Origin: an uncultured Ruminococcus sp.
GTDB lineage: Bacteria; Bacillota; Clostridia; Oscillospirales; Acutalibacteraceae
NCBI GenBank assembly: GCA_902799245.1
Contig: CADBZY010000013.1
Span: 1 to 58,910 of the forward strand
Direction of reading: 5' to 3'
Length of the DNA stretch: 58,910 bases
The number at the start of each line of letters is the position of its first letter. The first letter of the stretch is position 1. The position numbers were made by a program, and so were the translations under genes. Under the pieces are notes generated by a model. It saw only the letters and a program-made list of their open reading frames with translations, searched no databases and was not told the origin of the DNA. Below, one piece after another: positions 4,179 to 58,788 of the stretch.

Positions 4179-5372
4179 TCAAAAATCACCAGGCTCAAGG
4201 TGATAAACCTTTTCAAAGTCCTTGTTTGTCGCAACATCCATTGTAAAGTCAGTCTGATAATAGATGACTGACCAGTCAGTGAACGTCACAGGGTTTATGT
4301 ACTGATAAACCGATTCGAGAATGTCCATCGCATATTCGTGGGTTATCTCCGACTTACCCTCAAGCGCTTCTTTCATTGTGTCAAATCTCTCGCACAGGCC
4401 GTCTGTTTTTCCTTCAGCCCGATAGAGATAGAAGTTTGTGCACAGCTTGCTTCGGGTCACGTGCATTTCGATTTTTCTCGGAGCTTCCCAGTTATTGGTT
4501 CTGGACCACTTGACAACAGCCGCATCGCCTGTCGCGTCGGTGATGAAAACATGTTGCGTCCAGCCGTGTCCGGTATGAATATCATACTGCTTCAATAGTT
4601 CAACTGCCTCATCTACAGACGCTGCCCTGTCCAGTATCAGACGGACAGCCAGTGTAACAAGCAGTTCGGGTCTTTCCGTGTCGTCATGCATCTCTCCGGT
4701 ATCCACATCCATCAGTGCGGCGAATACACCCTTCTCGTTGACTCCGTCCACACAGATATAAGGGACTGCCAACATGGTGATTCTGCCTGCGGCACTGAGT
4801 GTTTCGACACCGTTCTCTCCTCCTAATCCCAGCATGTCAAGCGACACCATCGAAAGCGAGGCGTATCCGTCCTTCGGTGTGGCATAGACCGCCATCTTGT
4901 CTGTCCCGCCCAGTCCGAAGCTGCGCCCTGTGAGATACTTGCCGCCGTCGGTCTTGGAAATGAACCCGCTGCAGGCGTATTTATCAACGTTGGCATCAAT
5001 TCCGTAGCCGAAGAACATCTCTTCATTGATGAAATTGAGGAGATCCTGTTCGGTTTTGATGCCGGATTCCAGTGCCTTATCAAGGAAATAATCCTGCTGA
5101 TAGTGTATCTTGTAGAGATTGTCTCCCACCTGCTCTGCGCTTGCTGCCGTGGCAATCCTGCCCTAGAGTATAATGAAAAGCACAATCGCCGCTGCAAGAA
5201 TAACAATCACCGGCGTGAGGAATATCCAGAGCAGCACCCTGCGCCAGATTCTCTTTTTCTTTTTCTTTTTCGGTTTTTCGGCTGCTTCCACTGCTGCCTC
5301 ATCTGCTGTCATCCGGTTTTTCTCTTCTGTGATCTCTACGGTATTTCCTATGCTGGTTTCCATTTCGAACAA
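4179..5372 (-). pseudogene. Choloylglycine-hydrolase-type paralogue interrupted by an in-frame TAG
   Basis: Two open stretches in the same frame (5163-5372, 69 codons; 4179-5129, about 316 codons) are separated by one TAG (5163-5165) and 11 open codons (GRIATAASAEQ). Together they reproduce the layout of the intact paralogue at 1238-2386: a charged, Lys-rich N-terminus, a membrane anchor ending LFIIL, then EQVGDNLYKIHYQQDY matching EQVDEGIYKICYEKDY. The stop falls at the end of the anchor. The nucleophile region (YACSGF) is retained, but the active-site GRNFD motif has become GRSFG, losing the Asp. Re-initiation at GTG 5129 has no clear ribosome binding site and would give an unanchored protein. 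I call it a decaying gene; a sequencing error at the stop is the alternative. Confidence 0.75.
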
Positions 5373-48612: not shown

Positions 48613-49058
48613 AATAGCCGCCTCCTAAAAGTATTTTTGCGGCGAGGTGCTGCTACATGATTTTCGCTGCGCACCCGATGTCTTTCAACAACGCGTCCGG
48701 GTGTTTCATACACGGGCACTAAAAAACCGGAAGCCATTCTTCTCTTGAGGGTGTTCTTGGCTTTCCGGGTCAGTGAAAACGAATAGCAAGCGTATTTTGC
48801 TTGGCACAGTCCAATCCTGAGACGGCAGCTCATTGGGTTAGCTTCCGCCGGGAAAACGACATATGGCGAGCCTTAGCAACTCAAAAGGCTCTGATATATC
48901 TCGCTTGGAACTGCGCACACTTTTCGCCCGGTTTAAAATCGGACATACTCCATGGAAAAACCGTTCGCTTTATCGCTAAAGGAACGCAACCTCCCACTTC
49001 AACGCATATCTCATGTGCAGTCGCTGCAATTTTTCGCACGCACTCATTAGTCGCGTAC
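48613..49058 (-). promoter_or_regulatory. rpsJ leader: S10 operon leader (about 445 nt) with internal attenuator
   Basis: Between the promoter (TATAAT at 49065-49070) and rpsJ lie about 445 nt without a plausible gene. Several self-complementary stretches occur, and an intrinsic terminator at 48721-48768 lies about 110 nt before the rpsJ start. This layout (long leader, terminator, then a ribosomal operon) is that of an attenuated ribosomal-protein leader. The binding protein (L4, S10 or other) is not known from sequence. Confidence 0.6.
48721..48768 (-). terminator. Intrinsic terminator inside the S10 leader (attenuator)
   Basis: The stem CCGGAAAGCCA/TGGCTTCCGG (one bulged base) has a loop of about 21 nt and is followed on the minus strand by TTTTTT. 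It lies upstream of rpsJ in the same transcript, so it must be conditionally read through. Confidence 0.8.
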
Positions 49059-51263: not shown

Positions 51264-52697
51264 CTATCGCAGCTTTTCTACTTCCTTTTCCAGCAGTTCC
51301 CTGATGACCGCGGGATCGCCCTTGCCTTTGAGCTGCTTCATGCAGCATCCGAAGAGGGACTGCAGCGCCTTGGTCTTGCCGCCGAGGTAGTCGCCCACCG
51401 CCTTGTTGTTTTCGGCGATGACGTTTTTGACAATATCTAAAATTGCGGATTCATCCACCTTAGCATCGAGTGCCTGTTCCTTGATGTACTGCTCGGGAGA
51501 AACGCCCTTCTCGATAACAGCGCTGAGCACCTTCTTGCCAACGCCGCGGTTGATCTTGCCTTCGTCCACCATTCCGATGATATAGGAAAGCGCTTCCGGC
51601 GCGATGTCCAGCTCCCCGATCACCTTGCCGTTCCTGCGGAGAATACCTGCGCAGTCGGTAAGAATCCAAGCCGCCGTGTCAGCGGGCTTGCGTCCCGACG
51701 CGACAACCGCGTCGAAGATGTCGCAGAGCGTCCTCTCGGACACCAGTGAAGCTATATCCTGTTCCGAAAGTCCCATTCCGGTGTACTCGGCGGTTTTCTG
51801 CCCGATGGTGGCGTGCATGTTCTTTCTGATCTCCGCAAGCCACTGGTCGTCCACAACGATCGGCATGAGGTTGGGATCAGGGAAATATCTGTAATCGGCA
51901 GCGGTTTCCTTGTTGCGCATGGCAAAGGTTCTGTTCTTCATGTCGTCCCAGCGACGGGTCTCCTGCACAAGAACTTCCGTGTGTCTTTCGAGCGCGTCGA
52001 TGTGACGGGCCACCTCGTATTTGATCGCCCTTTCGATGGCGGTGAGCGAGCTCATGTTCTTGATCTCGCTGCGGACGCCGAGTTCCTCGGTGCCTTCGGG
52101 ACGGATGGAGATGTTCACGTCGCAGCGCATGGCGCCCTCTTCACACTCCGAAATACTGCCGAAGCGGAACATGGATTTCAGTTTGTCAAGGTAATTCAGC
52201 ACTTCTTCCGCACTGCGGAAATCCGGCTTGCTGACGATCTCGATCAGCGGAACGCTGGTACGGTTGAAGTCAACATAAGTCACGTCCGCCCAGTCGTCAT
52301 GTACCAGCTTGCCGGCGTCCTCCTCCATGTGAATCTGTTTGATACCGATGCGGCTCGTACCATGCTTGGTGGGAACGTCCACATAGCCTTCGGTGCAGAT
52401 GGGGTGGAACCACTGTGTGATCTGATAGGCACAGGGAAGGTCGGGGTAGTAATAGCTCTTCTTATCAAAGGTTGCGTACTGGTTGATCTTGCAGTTAAGC
52501 ATGATGCCGGCTTGCACAGCCAGCTCGACAGCGTGCCTGTTGGTGACGGGAAGCATACCCGGCATACCGCAGCAGGCGGGACATACGCAGTCGTTAGGCT
52601 GATCGGCTTCGGAATGACCGCCGCATGAACAGAATATTTTGGACTTGGTGGAAAGCTCCACATGGGTTTCCAGTCCTATCACGACTTCATATTTCAT
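51264..52697 (-). CDS. gatB: Asp-tRNA(Asn)/Glu-tRNA(Gln) amidotransferase subunit B
   Basis: The 477-residue kinase/amidase subunit phosphorylates the Asp or Glu on mischarged tRNA and adds ammonia. YEVVIGLETHVELSTKSKIF begins it. The FDKKSYYYPDLPCAYQITQ and IHMEEDAGKLVHD blocks form the kinase/transamidase site, the zinc Cys appear in CSCGG and CPACCG, and the C-terminal helical and YqeY-like domains (about 300-477) recognise the tRNA elbow. All motifs look intact, in contrast to the neighbouring GatA. Its start overlaps the end of gatA (52697). Confidence 0.96.
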   Translation of the reverse strand: MKYEVVIGLETHVELSTKSKIFCSCGGHSEADQPNDCVCPACCGMPGMLPVTNRHAVELAVQAGIMLNCKINQYATFDKKSYYYPDLPCAYQITQWFHPICTEGYVDVPTKHGTSRIGIKQIHMEEDAGKLVHDDWADVTYVDFNRTSVPLIEIVSKPDFRSAEEVLNYLDKLKSMFRFGSISECEEGAMRCDVNISIRPEGTEELGVRSEIKNMSSLTAIERAIKYEVARHIDALERHTEVLVQETRRWDDMKNRTFAMRNKETAADYRYFPDPNLMPIVVDDQWLAEIRKNMHATIGQKTAEYTGMGLSEQDIASLVSERTLCDIFDAVVASGRKPADTAAWILTDCAGILRRNGKVIGELDIAPEALSYIIGMVDEGKINRGVGKKVLSAVIEKGVSPEQYIKEQALDAKVDESAILDIVKNVIAENNKAVGDYLGGKTKALQSLFGCCMKQLKGKGDPAVIRELLEKEVEKLR

Positions 52698-53899
52698 CAG
52701 TCAGCCATCCTTTCTACCGCTCCGGCAATGCTCAGAAGGGTGCTTTCGGCAAAAGCCGCGCCCCAGAGCTGAACGCCGCCCGTTACCATTGCGGGAATAC
52801 CGATCAGGTTCGGAACGGTGGTGAAGAGCAGTTCTTTCTTGGTTCTCTCAAAGGTCTGAGCAAGGTCGTATTCCTCGACTGACGCGCTGCTCATAGCGGG
52901 AGCGATCACCGCGTCAAACGAAGCAAAGATTTCCTTCATCTTCTCGGAGGCAACTCTGCGCAGGCGGAGAGATTTGTCGTAGCAGCTCAGATATTGGTTC
53001 TTGGAAAGCACATCCGAGCCGTAGAGAACATTCATTTTGGCGGTGAAACCCATGCCCTCGGTACGGGAATTCACATACAGCTCGTCTATGTCCTTATAGG
53101 TGGGCGTTCTGTAGCCGAACTTCACTCCGTCGTATCTGGAAATGTTATTGCAGGTCTCCGCCGACAGCATAATCTGCCACGCCGTCGCGTAGGCCTTCAC
53201 GTCGGGAACGGAAACGGTTTCTATCTTTGCTCCGGAACTTTCTATCTTATTAAGATAGTTATCAAGAACGGACTTGACTTCATCCTTTGCCGCGTCATAA
53301 AGCTCTTTGACAACGGCAATTTTCATGCCCGAAATGTCCTTGTCGGAGGAATACCCGTACTTCTCCGCCGGAAGACTGGTGCCGTCCTTGCCATCGTGAC
53401 CGGCAATCACCGAGAGAAGCTCTTTGACATCTTCGGCGTTTCCGGCGCAGACGCCGACCTGTTCGCCCGAACAGGCAGTGGGGATGATGCCGTATCTGGA
53501 CACCGTGCCGTAGGTGGGCTTGATAAAATCAACGCCCGAAAGCGCCGCGCCGCGACGGGGTGCGCCGTTAACGTCCACACAGAGCGCAACCTTCACCGTT
53601 CCGGAAGCTACAGCTTCGGCAGCGGCGGTGGAAAGGCTTCCGTCAGCCTTTTTGCATACCCCGTGATAGGAGGTTTCTCCGGCGATGTCAAGCCCAAATT
53701 CGCCTGTGTGGGTCTTACCCTTAACGGCATATCCTGCCTTTAGCAGACGGTCTACCGCGTCGGCGCTGAACAGCGGCACAAAGCCGTCCAGAATGTGGGA
53801 GCCTGCCTTTGTTTCAAAGCCCTTTACAAGAAGGGTATCGTCAACCGCCACGGTTCCTGCGCGGTCGATTTCCGTTACAAAATAATCCACTTCCGTCAC
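52697..53899 (-). CDS. gatA: GatA-like amidase-family protein lacking the catalytic triad
   Basis: The 400-residue homologue of GatA (usually about 480-490) sits in the gatA position of the operon. The N-terminal ~75 residues are absent. Alignment by eye gives the family core: KAGSHILDGFVPLF, AGYAVKGKTHTGEF, IKPTYGTVSRYGIIP and VIAGHDGKDGTS. The Ser-cisSer-Lys triad is lost: IAIKDN becomes VAVDDT (Lys to Asp), GGSSGGS becomes DGSLSTA (cis-Ser to Leu) and GSDTGGSIRQPA becomes CVDVNGAPRRGA (nucleophile Ser to Ala). It is probably a structural subunit of GatCAB that cannot hydrolyse glutamine. The start is GTG 53899 (or GTG 53890); gatC ends 1 bp before. The frame is open throughout, so this is not a simple pseudogene. 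Confidence 0.85.
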   Translation of the reverse strand: MTEVDYFVTEIDRAGTVAVDDTLLVKGFETKAGSHILDGFVPLFSADAVDRLLKAGYAVKGKTHTGEFGLDIAGETSYHGVCKKADGSLSTAAAEAVASGTVKVALCVDVNGAPRRGAALSGVDFIKPTYGTVSRYGIIPTACSGEQVGVCAGNAEDVKELLSVIAGHDGKDGTSLPAEKYGYSSDKDISGMKIAVVKELYDAAKDEVKSVLDNYLNKIESSGAKIETVSVPDVKAYATAWQIMLSAETCNNISRYDGVKFGYRTPTYKDIDELYVNSRTEGMGFTAKMNVLYGSDVLSKNQYLSCYDKSLRLRRVASEKMKEIFASFDAVIAPAMSSASVEEYDLAQTFERTKKELLFTTVPNLIGIPAMVTGGVQLWGAAFAESTLLSIAGAVERMAD

Positions 53900-53900
53900 C

Positions 53901-54182
53901 TCACTTCACCAGTCTGGGAACAATCCAGCTGTCTTCGCTGTGTTCCGGCGCGCCTTCAAGCAGCTGCTCTCTTGTGAAGGGCTGCTCGCGCACGTCTTCC
54001 CGGAACACATTGGTCATGGGCATACAATGCACCATGACGTCAACGTTCTCTGTGTCAATGCTGCGAAGCTCCTCCGCTTCATTTTCCATGAAGCCGAATA
54101 CCTCCATTGCCTTCTGTTCCTCAGAATCGGTAAGTCTGAATTCGTTCAGGCTCTCGAGAGCCTTGAGTATTTCAACAGTCAT
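53901..54182 (-). CDS. gatC: Asp-tRNA(Asn)/Glu-tRNA(Gln) amidotransferase subunit C
   Basis: The 93-residue small subunit wraps around GatA and GatB and stabilises the complex. It shows the normal GatC pattern: N-terminal helices with FRLTDSEEQKAMEVF, then IDTENVDVMVHCMPMTNVFR and the C-terminal WIVPRLVK tail. It is intact, which argues that the complex is still assembled although GatA appears catalytically dead. It lies 1 bp before gatA and 337 bp after aspS. Confidence 0.92.
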   Translation of the reverse strand: MTVEILKALESLNEFRLTDSEEQKAMEVFGFMENEAEELRSIDTENVDVMVHCMPMTNVFREDVREQPFTREQLLEGAPEHSEDSWIVPRLVK

Positions 54183-54519: not shown

Positions 54520-56250
54520 TCATTCTCTGATGCTGATATTCGCTTCCAGAAGCTGCTGCTCTGTAACCTCGCTCGGTGCGCCGAGGAGCAGATCCTGCGC
54601 GTTACCGTTGAGCGGGAAGGCGATGACGTCACGGATAGATTCCTCGTCGGCAAGGAGCATGACGATTCTGTCCACACCGGGAGCCATGCCTGCGTGAGGC
54701 GGAGCGCCGTACTGGAAAGCGGTATAAAGCGCTGTGAAGCGGGATTCCAACTCTTCCTCGGAATAACCGGCGATTTCAAATGCCTTGCGCATGACGTCAA
54801 CATCGTGGTTTCTCACCGCGCCGGAGGCAAGCTCGATGCCGTTGCCCACAAGGTCATACTGATAGGCGAGCACCTCGGTGGGTTCCTTGGTTTCGAGTGC
54901 TTCCAGACCGCCCTGCGGCATGGAGAAAGGATTGTGTGTGAAGATGGTGTTGCCGGTGCTCTCGTCGATCTCGTACATGGGGAAGTCCACCACAAAGCAG
55001 AATTCAAAGGAATCCTGATCGATAATGCCGAGGTTTTCGCCGAGCCATGTTCTGATCTGACCTGCCTCGCGGTTGACGATGGACTTGGCGTCGCAGATGA
55101 AGAAAAGCGTCTCGTTTTCCTTGATGCCGGAAAGGGTGGTGATCTCTTCCTTCTTTTCAGGGGTGAGGAATTTGGCGATCGGGCCTTTGAATTCGCCGTC
55201 GGTGAGAGTGAGGTAGCCCAGACCCTTCATACCGATGGAGGTGGCGAACTTCAGGGAGTCCTCAAAGAACTTTCTGCTCTGGCCGTAGCAGTTGGCGACG
55301 ATACCTCTGACCGGCTTGCCCTTGAAGAGCGGGAAATCCACGCCGGCGAAGAAATCTGTCAGGTCGATGATGCGCAGGGGGTTGCGAAGGTCGGGCTTAT
55401 CGGTGCCGAACTGCATCATCGCGTCCTTGTAGGTAATTCTCTTAAAAGGCTTGGGGCTGATCTTTTTATCGGAATAGGTCTTGAAAACGTCGTAGATCAC
55501 GTCCTCGCAGACTTCGAGAACGTCCTCCTGCGTGGCAAAAGCCATTTCAAAGTCGAGCTGATAGAATTCTCCGGGGCTTCTGTCCTGACGTGCGTCCTCG
55601 TCGCGGAAGCAGGGAGCGATCTGGAAATACTTGTCAAATCCCGACACCATAAGCAGCTGCTTGAACTGCTGGGGTGCCTGCGGCAGGGCGTAGAACTTGC
55701 CCTTGTGCTTTCTGCTGGGGACGAGGAAGTCTCTCGCGCCTTCGGGAGACGACGCGGTGAGAATGGGAGTTTGAATCTCCAGAAATGCCTTTTCCTCCAT
55801 GCACTTTCTCATGGTGCGGATGATATTGGAGCGGAGCACAATGTTGTTGTGCAGACGATCGCTTCTGAGGTCAAGGTATCTGTATTTGAGGCGAACGTCC
55901 TCGCGTGTGCTTCTGGAATCGCTGATGTCAAAGGGAAGCATGTTTTTGCACTTGCCGAGCAGTGTCAGGGACTCCACCACCAGCTCCACCTTACCGGTGT
56001 CGAGCTTCTCGTTGACCGTCTCGGGGTCTCTTTCGGAGACCGTGCCGGAAACAGTGATGACGCATTCCTTGTTGACACCCGTCAGCAATGTTTCGTCGTG
56101 CACGACGGTCTGCGTGATGCCTGTCTGGTCTCTCAGATCGACAAAGATAACGCCGCCGTGGTCTCGGATGGTGTCCACCCAGCCGCAAAGCTGCACCTTT
56201 GTGCCGATGTCCTTTTCCCGAATGTCGTTGCAGTAATGTGTTCTGTACAT
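54520..56250 (-). CDS. aspS: Aspartate-tRNA ligase (bacterial type)
   Basis: The 576-residue class II synthetase has an N-terminal OB-fold anticodon domain (about 1-105, LCGWVDTIRDHGGVIFVDLR), motif 2 in FRDEDARQDRSPGEFYQLD, a GAD insertion domain (about 290-410) and motif 3 GMAPGVDRIVML. In bacteria that lack AsnRS, AspRS is non-discriminating and charges tRNA(Asn) with Asp for GatCAB to amidate. The shared operon with gatCAB points to that use here, but the anticodon residues were not analysed. A T-box leader and a TTGACA-N17-TATAAT promoter precede it. Confidence 0.96.
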   Translation of the reverse strand: MYRTHYCNDIREKDIGTKVQLCGWVDTIRDHGGVIFVDLRDQTGITQTVVHDETLLTGVNKECVITVSGTVSERDPETVNEKLDTGKVELVVESLTLLGKCKNMLPFDISDSRSTREDVRLKYRYLDLRSDRLHNNIVLRSNIIRTMRKCMEEKAFLEIQTPILTASSPEGARDFLVPSRKHKGKFYALPQAPQQFKQLLMVSGFDKYFQIAPCFRDEDARQDRSPGEFYQLDFEMAFATQEDVLEVCEDVIYDVFKTYSDKKISPKPFKRITYKDAMMQFGTDKPDLRNPLRIIDLTDFFAGVDFPLFKGKPVRGIVANCYGQSRKFFEDSLKFATSIGMKGLGYLTLTDGEFKGPIAKFLTPEKKEEITTLSGIKENETLFFICDAKSIVNREAGQIRTWLGENLGIIDQDSFEFCFVVDFPMYEIDESTGNTIFTHNPFSMPQGGLEALETKEPTEVLAYQYDLVGNGIELASGAVRNHDVDVMRKAFEIAGYSEEELESRFTALYTAFQYGAPPHAGMAPGVDRIVMLLADEESIRDVIAFPLNGNAQDLLLGAPSEVTEQQLLEANISIRE

Positions 56251-56299
56251 TCCAATTCCTCCATAAATAGCAAATTGTCATTTAGCTTTCTGAATAATA

Positions 56300-56572
56300 A
56301 AGAAAAAGCCCGTCTCAAGAATCCATAACGGCTCTTGGGACGAGCATTTTTTCAAATTACCCGCGGTGCCACCCAAATTGGTATGTTTTTTTCAAATCAT
56401 ACCCGCTTTGAATTATTCAATCTTGAAAAAACGAAAAAGTGTTCCCACGCTTACTACTCCCCCGAATGCACTTTCAGTCCATGATGCATACTCCCTGTCG
56501 GGCTTTCCAAAAAAGCGGAGTCTTTTCCGGCCACTTCACAATTTAAATCCGTGAAGTGATACTTTGACGTTC
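56300..56572 (-). promoter_or_regulatory. T-box leader of aspS-gatCAB
   Basis: The T-box core GGGTGGCACCGCGG (minus strand, 56361-56374) matches the consensus that pairs with the uncharged tRNA acceptor end. It is followed by a strong terminator. Upstream of it lie about 200 nt with several helices consistent with stem I. A GAC (Asp) triplet in GGACTGAAA, within a loop of the upstream part, is a candidate specifier. The operon would be induced when tRNA(Asp) is uncharged. That also places gatC, gatA and gatB under Asp-tRNA control. Confidence 0.85.
56301..56345 (-). terminator. T-box intrinsic terminator of aspS
   Basis: The stem GCTCGTCCCAAGA/TCTTGAGACGGGC (one mismatch pair) is followed on the minus strand by TTTTTCTTT. 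It forms when the tRNA is charged. Confidence 0.9.
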
Positions 56573-56601
56573 ATTATATCACCGCTTTATTTAATTGTCA
56601 A
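56573..56601 (-). promoter_or_regulatory. Consensus promoter of the aspS operon
   Basis: On the minus strand TTGACA (56596-56601) and TATAAT (56573-56578) are separated by 17 bp, a perfect consensus match on both boxes. Confidence 0.85.
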
Positions 56602-56653
56602 TACCGTTTTTTAAATTTTGTCATGCGAAAATCGGTAAATAATTGCTCTATAC

Positions 56654-56696
56654 AAAGCCAAAATCCCATCAACCGTCGTTGACAGGATTTCGCGTT
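56654..56696. repeat. Hairpin repeat, copy 1 (AAATCCCATC...GACAGGATTT family)
   Basis: A hairpin with AAATCC/GGATTT-type arms around CATCAACCGTCGTTGACAG. It is related to copy 2 at 57096-57141 and to the loop of the hairpin at 57023-57069. Confidence 0.6.
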
Positions 56697-57069: not shown

Positions 57070-57095
57070 AACTTAATACTTAAAAATGAATAATA

Positions 57096-57141
57096 CAAAG
57101 CGAAAATCCCATCGACTTTCGTCGACAGGATTTTCGCTTTG
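57096..57141. repeat. Hairpin repeat, copy 2
   Basis: The perfect arms CAAAGCGAAAATCC/GGATTTTCGCTTTG enclose CATCGACTTTCGTCGACA, another short palindrome. It is closely related to copy 1. No transcript assignment is possible. Confidence 0.65.
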
Positions 57142-57902: not shown

Positions 57903-58481
57903 ATGGCTATTGCCATGGTCATTATAGCACAGTATCATATGGAAGTCAATCTGTTTGGAGAAACAATCTGCAAAAGTGAAGAAGAGCCGGTGTGCCCGAT
58001 CTGCCAGACCAAGCTGAAATTCCGCGATTGGAGACGGAGAATATCCATTAAGGAAGGTCGCGATGTAACATGGATCATGATCCGCAGGCTGTATTGCAAG
58101 AAGTGCCGGAGACTGCACAATGAGCTGCCGGACATTCTTTCGCCATATAAGCATTACGAGGCGGAAACCATAGAAGGGGTTGTTGACGGCATTGTACTGC
58201 CGGATGACGCGGACAGCGAGATGTACCCCTGCGCGGCAACCATGAATCGCTGGAAGCAATGGATCGCGCACAATACACCGTTCATTGAGGGATTCCTGCG
58301 CATGATAGGCTACAGCATCATGGAGCTTGGCAAGGAGTACCTGATGACAGGGGAAAAGATCTTTGACAGCCTGCGAAAACGGTTGCCGCCGGAACGGAAA
58401 TCATGGCTGGGATATATCAACAGAATCATATACAATTCGGGGGCGTCGCTGGAACCATTTCCAAAAGTCGAAGCCCCTTAA
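57903..58481 (+). CDS. DUF6431-type zinc-finger protein of a transposable element
   Basis: The 192-residue protein has two CxxC pairs (CPIC at about 29-32 and CKKC at about 60-63) around a segment rich in Arg, forming a probable zinc ribbon. Next come LYCKKCRRLHNELPDILSPY, the DUF6431 pattern, and a helical C-terminal half. Such proteins are found next to transposase genes with HTH and integrase cores in Clostridia. ATG 57903 is the first of several possible starts; ATG 57939, at MEVNLFGE, may be the true one. It is probably an accessory gene of the element whose HTH gene follows at 58555. Confidence 0.65.
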   Translation: MAIAMVIIAQYHMEVNLFGETICKSEEEPVCPICQTKLKFRDWRRRISIKEGRDVTWIMIRRLYCKKCRRLHNELPDILSPYKHYEAETIEGVVDGIVLPDDADSEMYPCAATMNRWKQWIAHNTPFIEGFLRMIGYSIMELGKEYLMTGEKIFDSLRKRLPPERKSWLGYINRIIYNSGASLEPFPKVEAP

Positions 58482-58501
58482 GGGGCTGCACCTACTTTGT
58501 T

Positions 58502-58530
58502 TTGGTGACAACGGGATTCTGTGATATGAT
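58502..58530 (+). promoter_or_regulatory. Candidate promoter of the transposase HTH gene
   Basis: TTGGTG (58502-58507) and TATGAT (58525-58530) are separated by 17 bp. The palindrome AGCCCCTTAAGGGGCT sits just upstream. Confidence 0.4.
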
Positions 58531-58554
58531 GGTCTCGAAGGGAGGCTATCAGCC

Positions 58555-58788
58555 ATGAATCAAAATCATAACACCCCAAATTGGCAGGACGAGCAAGCAC
58601 TCGACCGCTACAGAATCATCTCCCCGCTTACCGACACGGAAATCGACATCGCTAAGCGTAATAAACTGCGCCTTGAAATAGCGGAGAACAACGGAATTTC
58701 AGTCCGCACACTGTATCGCTGGGAAAAAAGCTTCGCGGAAAACGGATATGCGGGACTGAAGCCCATGAACCGCGAATACCGCCGTTGA
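58555..58788 (+). pseudogene. Truncated transposase N-terminus (helix-turn-helix)
   Basis: The 77 residues contain a helix-turn-helix, NGISVRTLYRWEKSFAENGY, preceded by RYRIISPLTD. This matches the N-terminus of Mu/IS481-like DDE transposases, which continue for about 300 more residues. Here translation stops at TGA 58786-58788, where the sequence changes into a different transposase family. GGGAGG lies before the ATG. It is probably broken by insertion or recombination at about 58785. Confidence 0.65.

Follow-up and report, generated by a model that had tools for sequence, protein, structure and literature searches.

A natural GatA lacking its glutaminase triad in a T-box-led aspS-gatCAB operon of an uncultured Ruminococcus and its relatives

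We found that the genome of an uncultured Ruminococcus sp. encodes, within an otherwise intact aspS-gatC-gatA-gatB operon, a GatA (here called GatA2) whose glutaminase site is gone, judged by the residues that it carries at the site. We propose that the operon probably specifies a transamidosome that is induced by asparagine starvation, in which GatA2 would be a scaffold and the ammonia would come not from its own glutaminase but, most likely, from free ammonium. Gene content, lost residues, their conservation, selection on the gene, its distribution and the T-box with a conserved AAC are direct observations, described below. GatCAB is the standard example of an enzyme complex that produces ammonia and channels it internally. 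In the known enzyme, as stated in the accessible parts of one study, GatA frees ammonia that travels through a tunnel to GatB, and NH4Cl can stand in for glutamine in vitro (PMC4027206).

The window (the whole stretch of DNA analysed, 58,910 nucleotides) carries on its minus strand, in this order, a promoter, a T-box leader, aspS, gatC, gatA and gatB. The gatA2 frame (52697..53899, minus strand) is uninterrupted over 400 codons from GTG 53899; translation probably begins three codons later, at GTG 53890, which follows a Shine-Dalgarno-like run, GAGGTG, and is matched by ATG at the corresponding codon in 6 of 8 genus members (window included). The product matches the amidase-signature fold (Pfam PF01425, 168.9 bits) and reaches 254.1 bits with the GatA equivalog model TIGR00132, below the curated cut-off of 481.1. 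Its predicted structure has the GatA fold (pLDDT 94.8), and a Foldseek search with this model returned A. aeolicus GatA (3h0l_A, TM 0.92) as the best match in the PDB. A sequence-only reading of the window had described an open 400-codon gatA with Asp, Leu and Ala in place of the Lys, cis-Ser and nucleophile Ser, and alignment with S. aureus GatA (2df4_A) bore this out: Lys79 falls opposite Asp20, cis-Ser154 opposite Leu89 and Ser178 opposite Ala113. The same reading had allowed that the triad might lie at shifted positions, and the alignments ruled this out. The position of Tyr309 is occupied by Trp241. Homology begins at residue 17-18, opposite S. aureus residue 77, and about 60-75 N-terminal residues are missing, in agreement with the loss of some 75 noticed earlier.

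We take Arg358 and Asp425 to be the S. aureus numbers of the glutamine-binding residues of GatA. Their binding role is assigned by analogy with R334 and D418 of the yeast enzyme, as given in the accessible parts of the yeast study (PMC4027206). Residues were compared between 107 GatA2 rows, covering all 45 GatA2-bearing genomes of the family, and 84 ordinary rows, which came down to 66 and 78 once identical cores were removed; ordinary frames shorter than 440 aa were excluded. Each of the six site residues (Lys79, Ser154, Ser178, Tyr309, Arg358 and Asp425) is found in 77-78 of the 78 ordinary GatAs. Arg358 and Asp425 are kept in none of the 66 GatA2 rows, whereas all 78 ordinary GatAs have them, and cis-Ser154 is likewise kept in 0 of 66. 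The Lys79 column holds Asp in 65 rows and a gap in one, and the Tyr309 column holds Trp in 65 of 66. The nucleophile column 178 is more mixed (Ala in 47, Ser in 13, Tyr in 3, Thr in 3), and all 13 rows with Ser there are without the Lys or the cis-Ser. The Lys79 column reads 13 Asp, 2 Glu and 1 gap in 16 further members from the order, and 11 Asp and 1 Glu in 12 members from the class; cis-Ser, Arg358 and Asp425 are each absent from all 16 and all 12, and none of the 94 GatA2 members examined in all carries any of the three. One row, L220:2573-3727, is a GatA2 of 384 aa with a gap in the cis-Ser region; its genome, G072, has AsnRS.

Among 108 columns that are near-invariant in ordinary GatA, 46 are kept in GatA2, 16 switched, 35 lost and 11 intermediate. 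Of the 16 switched columns, 15 carry a different residue that is again near-invariant and one carries a gap; the set includes Lys79Asp, Gly130Asp, Gly176Asn, Gln181Arg, Asp211Glu and Tyr309Trp (S. aureus numbering). By these alignments the glutaminase site of GatA2 is gone, and its pocket seems to be under selection for something else.

The partners of GatA2 are complete by Pfam and NCBIfam, aspS as well as gatC and gatB, the last two having been called normal before. The gatC2 gene (53901..54182, minus strand; 93 aa) scores 53.3 bits with TIGR00135 against a cut-off of 47.1, gatB2 (51264..52697, minus strand; 477 aa) scores 513 bits with TIGR00133, and aspS2 (54520..56250, minus strand; 576 aa) encodes a second bacterial-type AspRS with the motif RDHGG. 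The His of this motif, which we take to be the mark of a non-discriminating AspRS, is present in 27 of the 27 AspRS2 rows where the pattern was found, and three other AspRSs have Leu or Lys there. The accessible parts of the relevant papers give no residue rule for non-discriminating AspRS; AspRS2 would probably be of this type. Of 78 operon loci, 53 have AspRS2 fused to GatC and 21 have the two as separate proteins; in 4, AspRS is out of view (these loci overlap between collections, so they are not 78 genomes). GatB2 retains Glu10, His12, Glu125 and Glu153, which, going by the motif, appear equivalent to yeast residues that are described, in the accessible parts of the yeast study, as binding ATP and Mg2+ (PMC4027206). 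Across 65 GatB2 rows, 70 of 96 near-invariant GatB columns are kept and 26 changed, so the activity of GatB2 is not certain.

A tRNA(Asn) gene lies upstream of the operon in 2 of 49 loci scanned (L046 and L065), in both cases with U1-A72, which the accessible parts of one paper give as the base pair for amidation of tRNA(Asn) (PMC9976931). At L046:1049-9491 an ordinary-length gatC-gatA-gatB, tRNA-Asn (4466-4540) and T-box-aspS2-gatC2-gatA2-gatB2 follow one another in a row, so that the operon with the ordinary-length gatA is directly upstream of the triad-less one and the two GatA types adjoin. On the other side, 3' of gatB2 and on the same strand, 11 of 50 operon loci (some genomes counted twice) have an alanyl-tRNA-editing-like gene, for example L053:10653-11816, where the copy matches tRNA_SAD and DHHA1.

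The operon is preceded by a T-box leader (56290..56560, minus strand) and by a TTGACA-17-TATAAT promoter (56573..56601, minus strand; TTGACA at 56601-56596, TATAAT at 56578-56573) that agrees with the consensus in 12 of 12 positions; both had been recognized in the sequence-only reading and stood up to analysis. The leader has a stem I with specifier, a T-box core and a terminator. Rfam model RF00230 matches 56333-56591 (minus strand) with 38.8 bits (E 9.2e-7), which is less than the gathering score of 93, and the match is absent from the listing at that threshold; the leader of another locus, L057, scores 32.0 bits (E 1.4e-5). The core motif (56362-56373, minus strand), inside the leader, is found a single time in the window, and none of 100 shuffles contains it. 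It is exact in 25 of 26 leaders in view, and 25 of 30 GatA2 database loci have the exact core where aspS begins; in the other five, the leader is off the contig in four and L059 shows none. The specifier loop of the covarying stem I reads AAC (Asn) and then A or G in all 26 aligned leaders, window included, and the base before AAC varies among them, so the T-box points to tRNA(Asn) alone. In an alignment of 21 of the 25 leaders plus the window, 24 of 46 pairs of the consensus structure are changed on both sides, a value reached in 0 of 500 shuffles, the structure having been derived from the same alignment on which it was scored; in the number of pair types the leaders do not stand out from shuffles (224 of 500). 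Taken on its sequence features, the leader is real, though it falls below the Rfam gathering score.

Elsewhere in the window, an imperfect palindromic repeat occurs twice upstream of the operon (56650-56690 and 57093-57133), in copies that are 88% alike, and is suspected to be a small mobile or REP-like element. A DUF6431 protein followed by a helix-turn-helix ORF (57903-58788), near the contig end, is probably an insertion sequence. An S10-Clostridia ribosomal protein leader (RF03136, 45.8 bits) is found at 48921-49010 on the minus strand, and the genes after it look like ribosomal protein genes. PADLOC gave no match.

The short GatA is present in 8 of 18 genomes of the genus and absent in 10, and an ordinary-length GatA is present in all 18. 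The eight genus orthologs are all open, all triad-less and 78-92% identical. Triad loss and short length, which the sequence-only reading had proposed to look for in relatives, are shared among them and across the 45 genomes of the family that carry the gene. In 28 genus pairs dN/dS is 0.07-0.15, with synonymous distances of up to 1.5 that make the largest ratios rough; by this measure GatA2 is under purifying selection. Sampling more widely, we found GatA2 in 45 of 398 genomes of the GTDB family of the window (26 of 135 genera), in 17 of 394 genomes of the order (own included; nine family labels) and in 13 of 391 of the class (own included; seven further family labels). In the order sample, the lowest-scoring short form has 417 bits and the highest-scoring ordinary GatA 306 bits. 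Similarly, among the best 80 of 291 loci from a database scan, whose patterns favour close relatives, 30 GatA2 loci match at 52-92% identity and the next best at 34%. Many of these 30 carry ruminant-gut titles. In a phylogenetic tree, 49 GatA2 rows (33 of the 66, plus the 16 further members, with the partial L251 left out) are split from 39 others (30 ordinary rows from Clostridia and 9 thinned rows of the Alphaproteobacteria type) by a branch with support 100/100. By tree, distribution and selection, GatA2 is one old clade across many families and no decaying duplicate.

The window belongs to genome G000 (3.03 Mb, 98.8% complete). The supposition that GatA2 is its only GatA was overturned by a second, intact gatC-gatA-gatB on contig C6, whose GatA has 489 aa and scores 609.2 bits with TIGR00132. 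The genome also encodes AsnRS, GlnRS, GluRS and a second AspRS; the first two together had been named in the sequence-only reading as making GatCAB dispensable. Given the intact GatCAB, AsnRS and GlnRS, the triad-less GatCAB need not be essential in this genome.

Many relatives have a different gene set. All 30 GatA2 database loci are titled MAG or uncultured and the sampled genomes of relatives are drafts, so gene absences have to be read statistically. The triad-less protein is the only match to the GatA model (E 0.001) in 33 of the 45 family genomes, and no other amidase-family protein was found in these 33 with that model; in G072 and G138 the only match, triad-less, comes as two pieces. 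Both GatA types occur in the remaining 12. AsnRS was found over the cut-off in 13 of 45 and is absent by this search in 32; among control genomes the same search succeeded in 7 of 14. Of five full-length AsnRS-model matches of about 250 bits, four were rejected as AsnRS: in G297, G304, G233 and G348 the protein is an extra archaeal-type aspartate--tRNA(Asn) ligase. G240, the genome with the fifth of these weaker matches, has an AsnRS over the cut-off in any case. A gatB-like frame was seen by eye beside the archaeal-type ligase in L191 and L193. GlnRS passes the cut-off in 43 of 45 genomes; of the other two, one has it split between two contigs and one, which is 71% complete, lacks it. Altogether 24 of the 45 genomes have neither an intact GatA nor AsnRS, and 11 of them reach a completeness of 90% or more at a contamination of 3% or less. 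For these 24, therefore, the only way to Asn-tRNA(Asn) that can be seen leads through an AspRS and the triad-less GatCAB. Asparagine synthetase B is present in many of the 45 genomes, with no clear pattern; no match better than E 1e-5 was found in four of the 11 (G142, G239, G265 and G305), where asparagine itself may therefore come from the triad-less route. The earlier idea, in which GatA is a scaffold and its GatCAB has no own glutaminase, is thus favoured by the 33 genomes where GatA2 is alone and the 24 that also lack AsnRS, and fails for the window's genome in so far as GatA2 is not the sole GatA there.

These features can be assembled into a scheme. Uncharged tRNA(Asn) would induce the operon through the T-box with its AAC specifier; AspRS2 would load Asp onto tRNA(Asn), and GatB2, if catalytically active, would activate and amidate the Asp-tRNA(Asn). 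GatA2 would serve as a scaffold of GatA fold that has lost glutamine binding and hydrolysis, and may hold the tunnel and the assembly with GatB and GatC together. Without glutamine binding or hydrolysis by GatA2, ammonia would have to reach GatB2 in another way, most likely as free ammonium from the medium, which might enter where the glutaminase pocket used to be, now remodelled. Beside the AsnRS and intact GatCAB of the window's genome, this would be a second, regulated route; in many relatives it would be the only visible one. We give even chances to a bolder version, a glutamine-independent tRNA amidotransferase in which GatA2 is a putative ammonium-capture funnel, with Asp for Lys79 and Gly130 and Trp for Tyr309 in its pocket, tied or fused via GatC to AspRS. 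Such an enzyme would be induced when asparagine runs short, and many gut Clostridia would have no other supply of Asn-tRNA(Asn).

Other readings of GatA2 were weighed against this scheme. Glutamine could still be the donor if a separate glutaminase, from another family, docked on GatA2 and supplied GatB2 with ammonia in trans; the conserved, remodelled pocket (Asp79, Asp130, Asn176, Arg181, Glu211, Trp309) would suit a binding surface. However, the clusters that recur in at least 4 of 50 loci consist of the core genes, the alanyl-tRNA-editing-like gene (11), a secreted protein without a Pfam match (6) and opposite-strand frames over core genes, with no glutaminase recognized among them, and the GatA model found no second amidase-family protein in the 33 GatA2-only genomes. 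This count takes in loci that overlap between collections rather than 50 genomes, and the picking of ORFs dropped some genes, so that rare neighbours may have escaped notice; as only the longest frame was retained, the GatA cluster itself was recovered in 46 of 50 loci. We regard a glutaminase acting in trans as unlikely. New chemistry on another nitrogen donor, to which the fifteen columns switched to another near-invariant residue and the one switched to a gap might be owed, seems less probable still: GatA2 has no recognizable set of nucleophile and base, position 178 is variable (A, S, Y, T) and L220 is gapped at the cis-Ser.

The 12 genomes with both GatAs, and the adjoining operons of L046, would also fit a GatA2 that acts as an inhibitory or regulatory decoy while GatA1 serves GatB2, but no other GatA was found in 33 of 45, which leaves this reading very improbable. 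Hardest of all to credit is a decaying duplicate or an assembly error, for which the redundancy of function in the window's genome could be quoted: the gene is open in 8 of 8 genus orthologs, its dN/dS is low and its clade is old and spread over many families. A pseudogene or a chance loss is ruled out by the same losses in the eight open orthologs together with dN/dS, as is, by the intact GatCAB on contig C6, a GatA2 that is the only GatA of the window's genome. The scaffold supplied with free ammonium remains our preferred reading.

The system shares much with bacterial GatCAB (S. aureus 2f2a/2df4, A. aeolicus 3h0l, and the P. aeruginosa asparagine transamidosome 4wj3), namely the GatA fold, the GatB active-site residues, GatC and an AspRS partner; it differs in a GatA2 without the triad, without Arg358 and Asp425, and without the N-terminal segment. 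In Clostridium acetobutylicum, work by Saad of 2012 and 2013 reportedly found a T-box with a tRNA(Asn) specifier over a tRNA-dependent amidation operon, and this T-box is said to read Asn and Glu codons; its GatA presumably keeps the triad. In the operon described here, in contrast, the conserved specifier is AAC only, and GatA lacks the triad. A weakened glutaminase site with raised NH4Cl-driven transamidation is described, in the accessible parts of the yeast study, for mitochondrial GatFAB upon truncation of GatF near that site (PMC4027206), but that is an engineered truncation, whereas GatA2 is a natural loss of the triad. Bdellovibrio, Deinococcus and Thermus combine a non-discriminating AspRS and GatCAB with GlnRS and AsnRS, a gene set resembling that of the window's genome, and the accessible parts of the account mention no triad loss in their GatA (PMC4206432). 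Searches of open-access literature, outside which most subscription journals fall, listed no paper on a natural triad-less GatA. Of the parts, GatCAB, the non-discriminating AspRS and an Asn transamidation operon under T-box control are known; the fixed loss of the glutaminase is new.

If the scheme is true, the label 'glutamine-hydrolysing GatA' would be misleading for GatA2 proteins, and these would serve as a natural scaffold on which the entry of free ammonia into the GatB tunnel could be studied. Channelled glutamine would then be dispensable where ammonium is plentiful, and translation in these bacteria would be tied to ambient ammonium.
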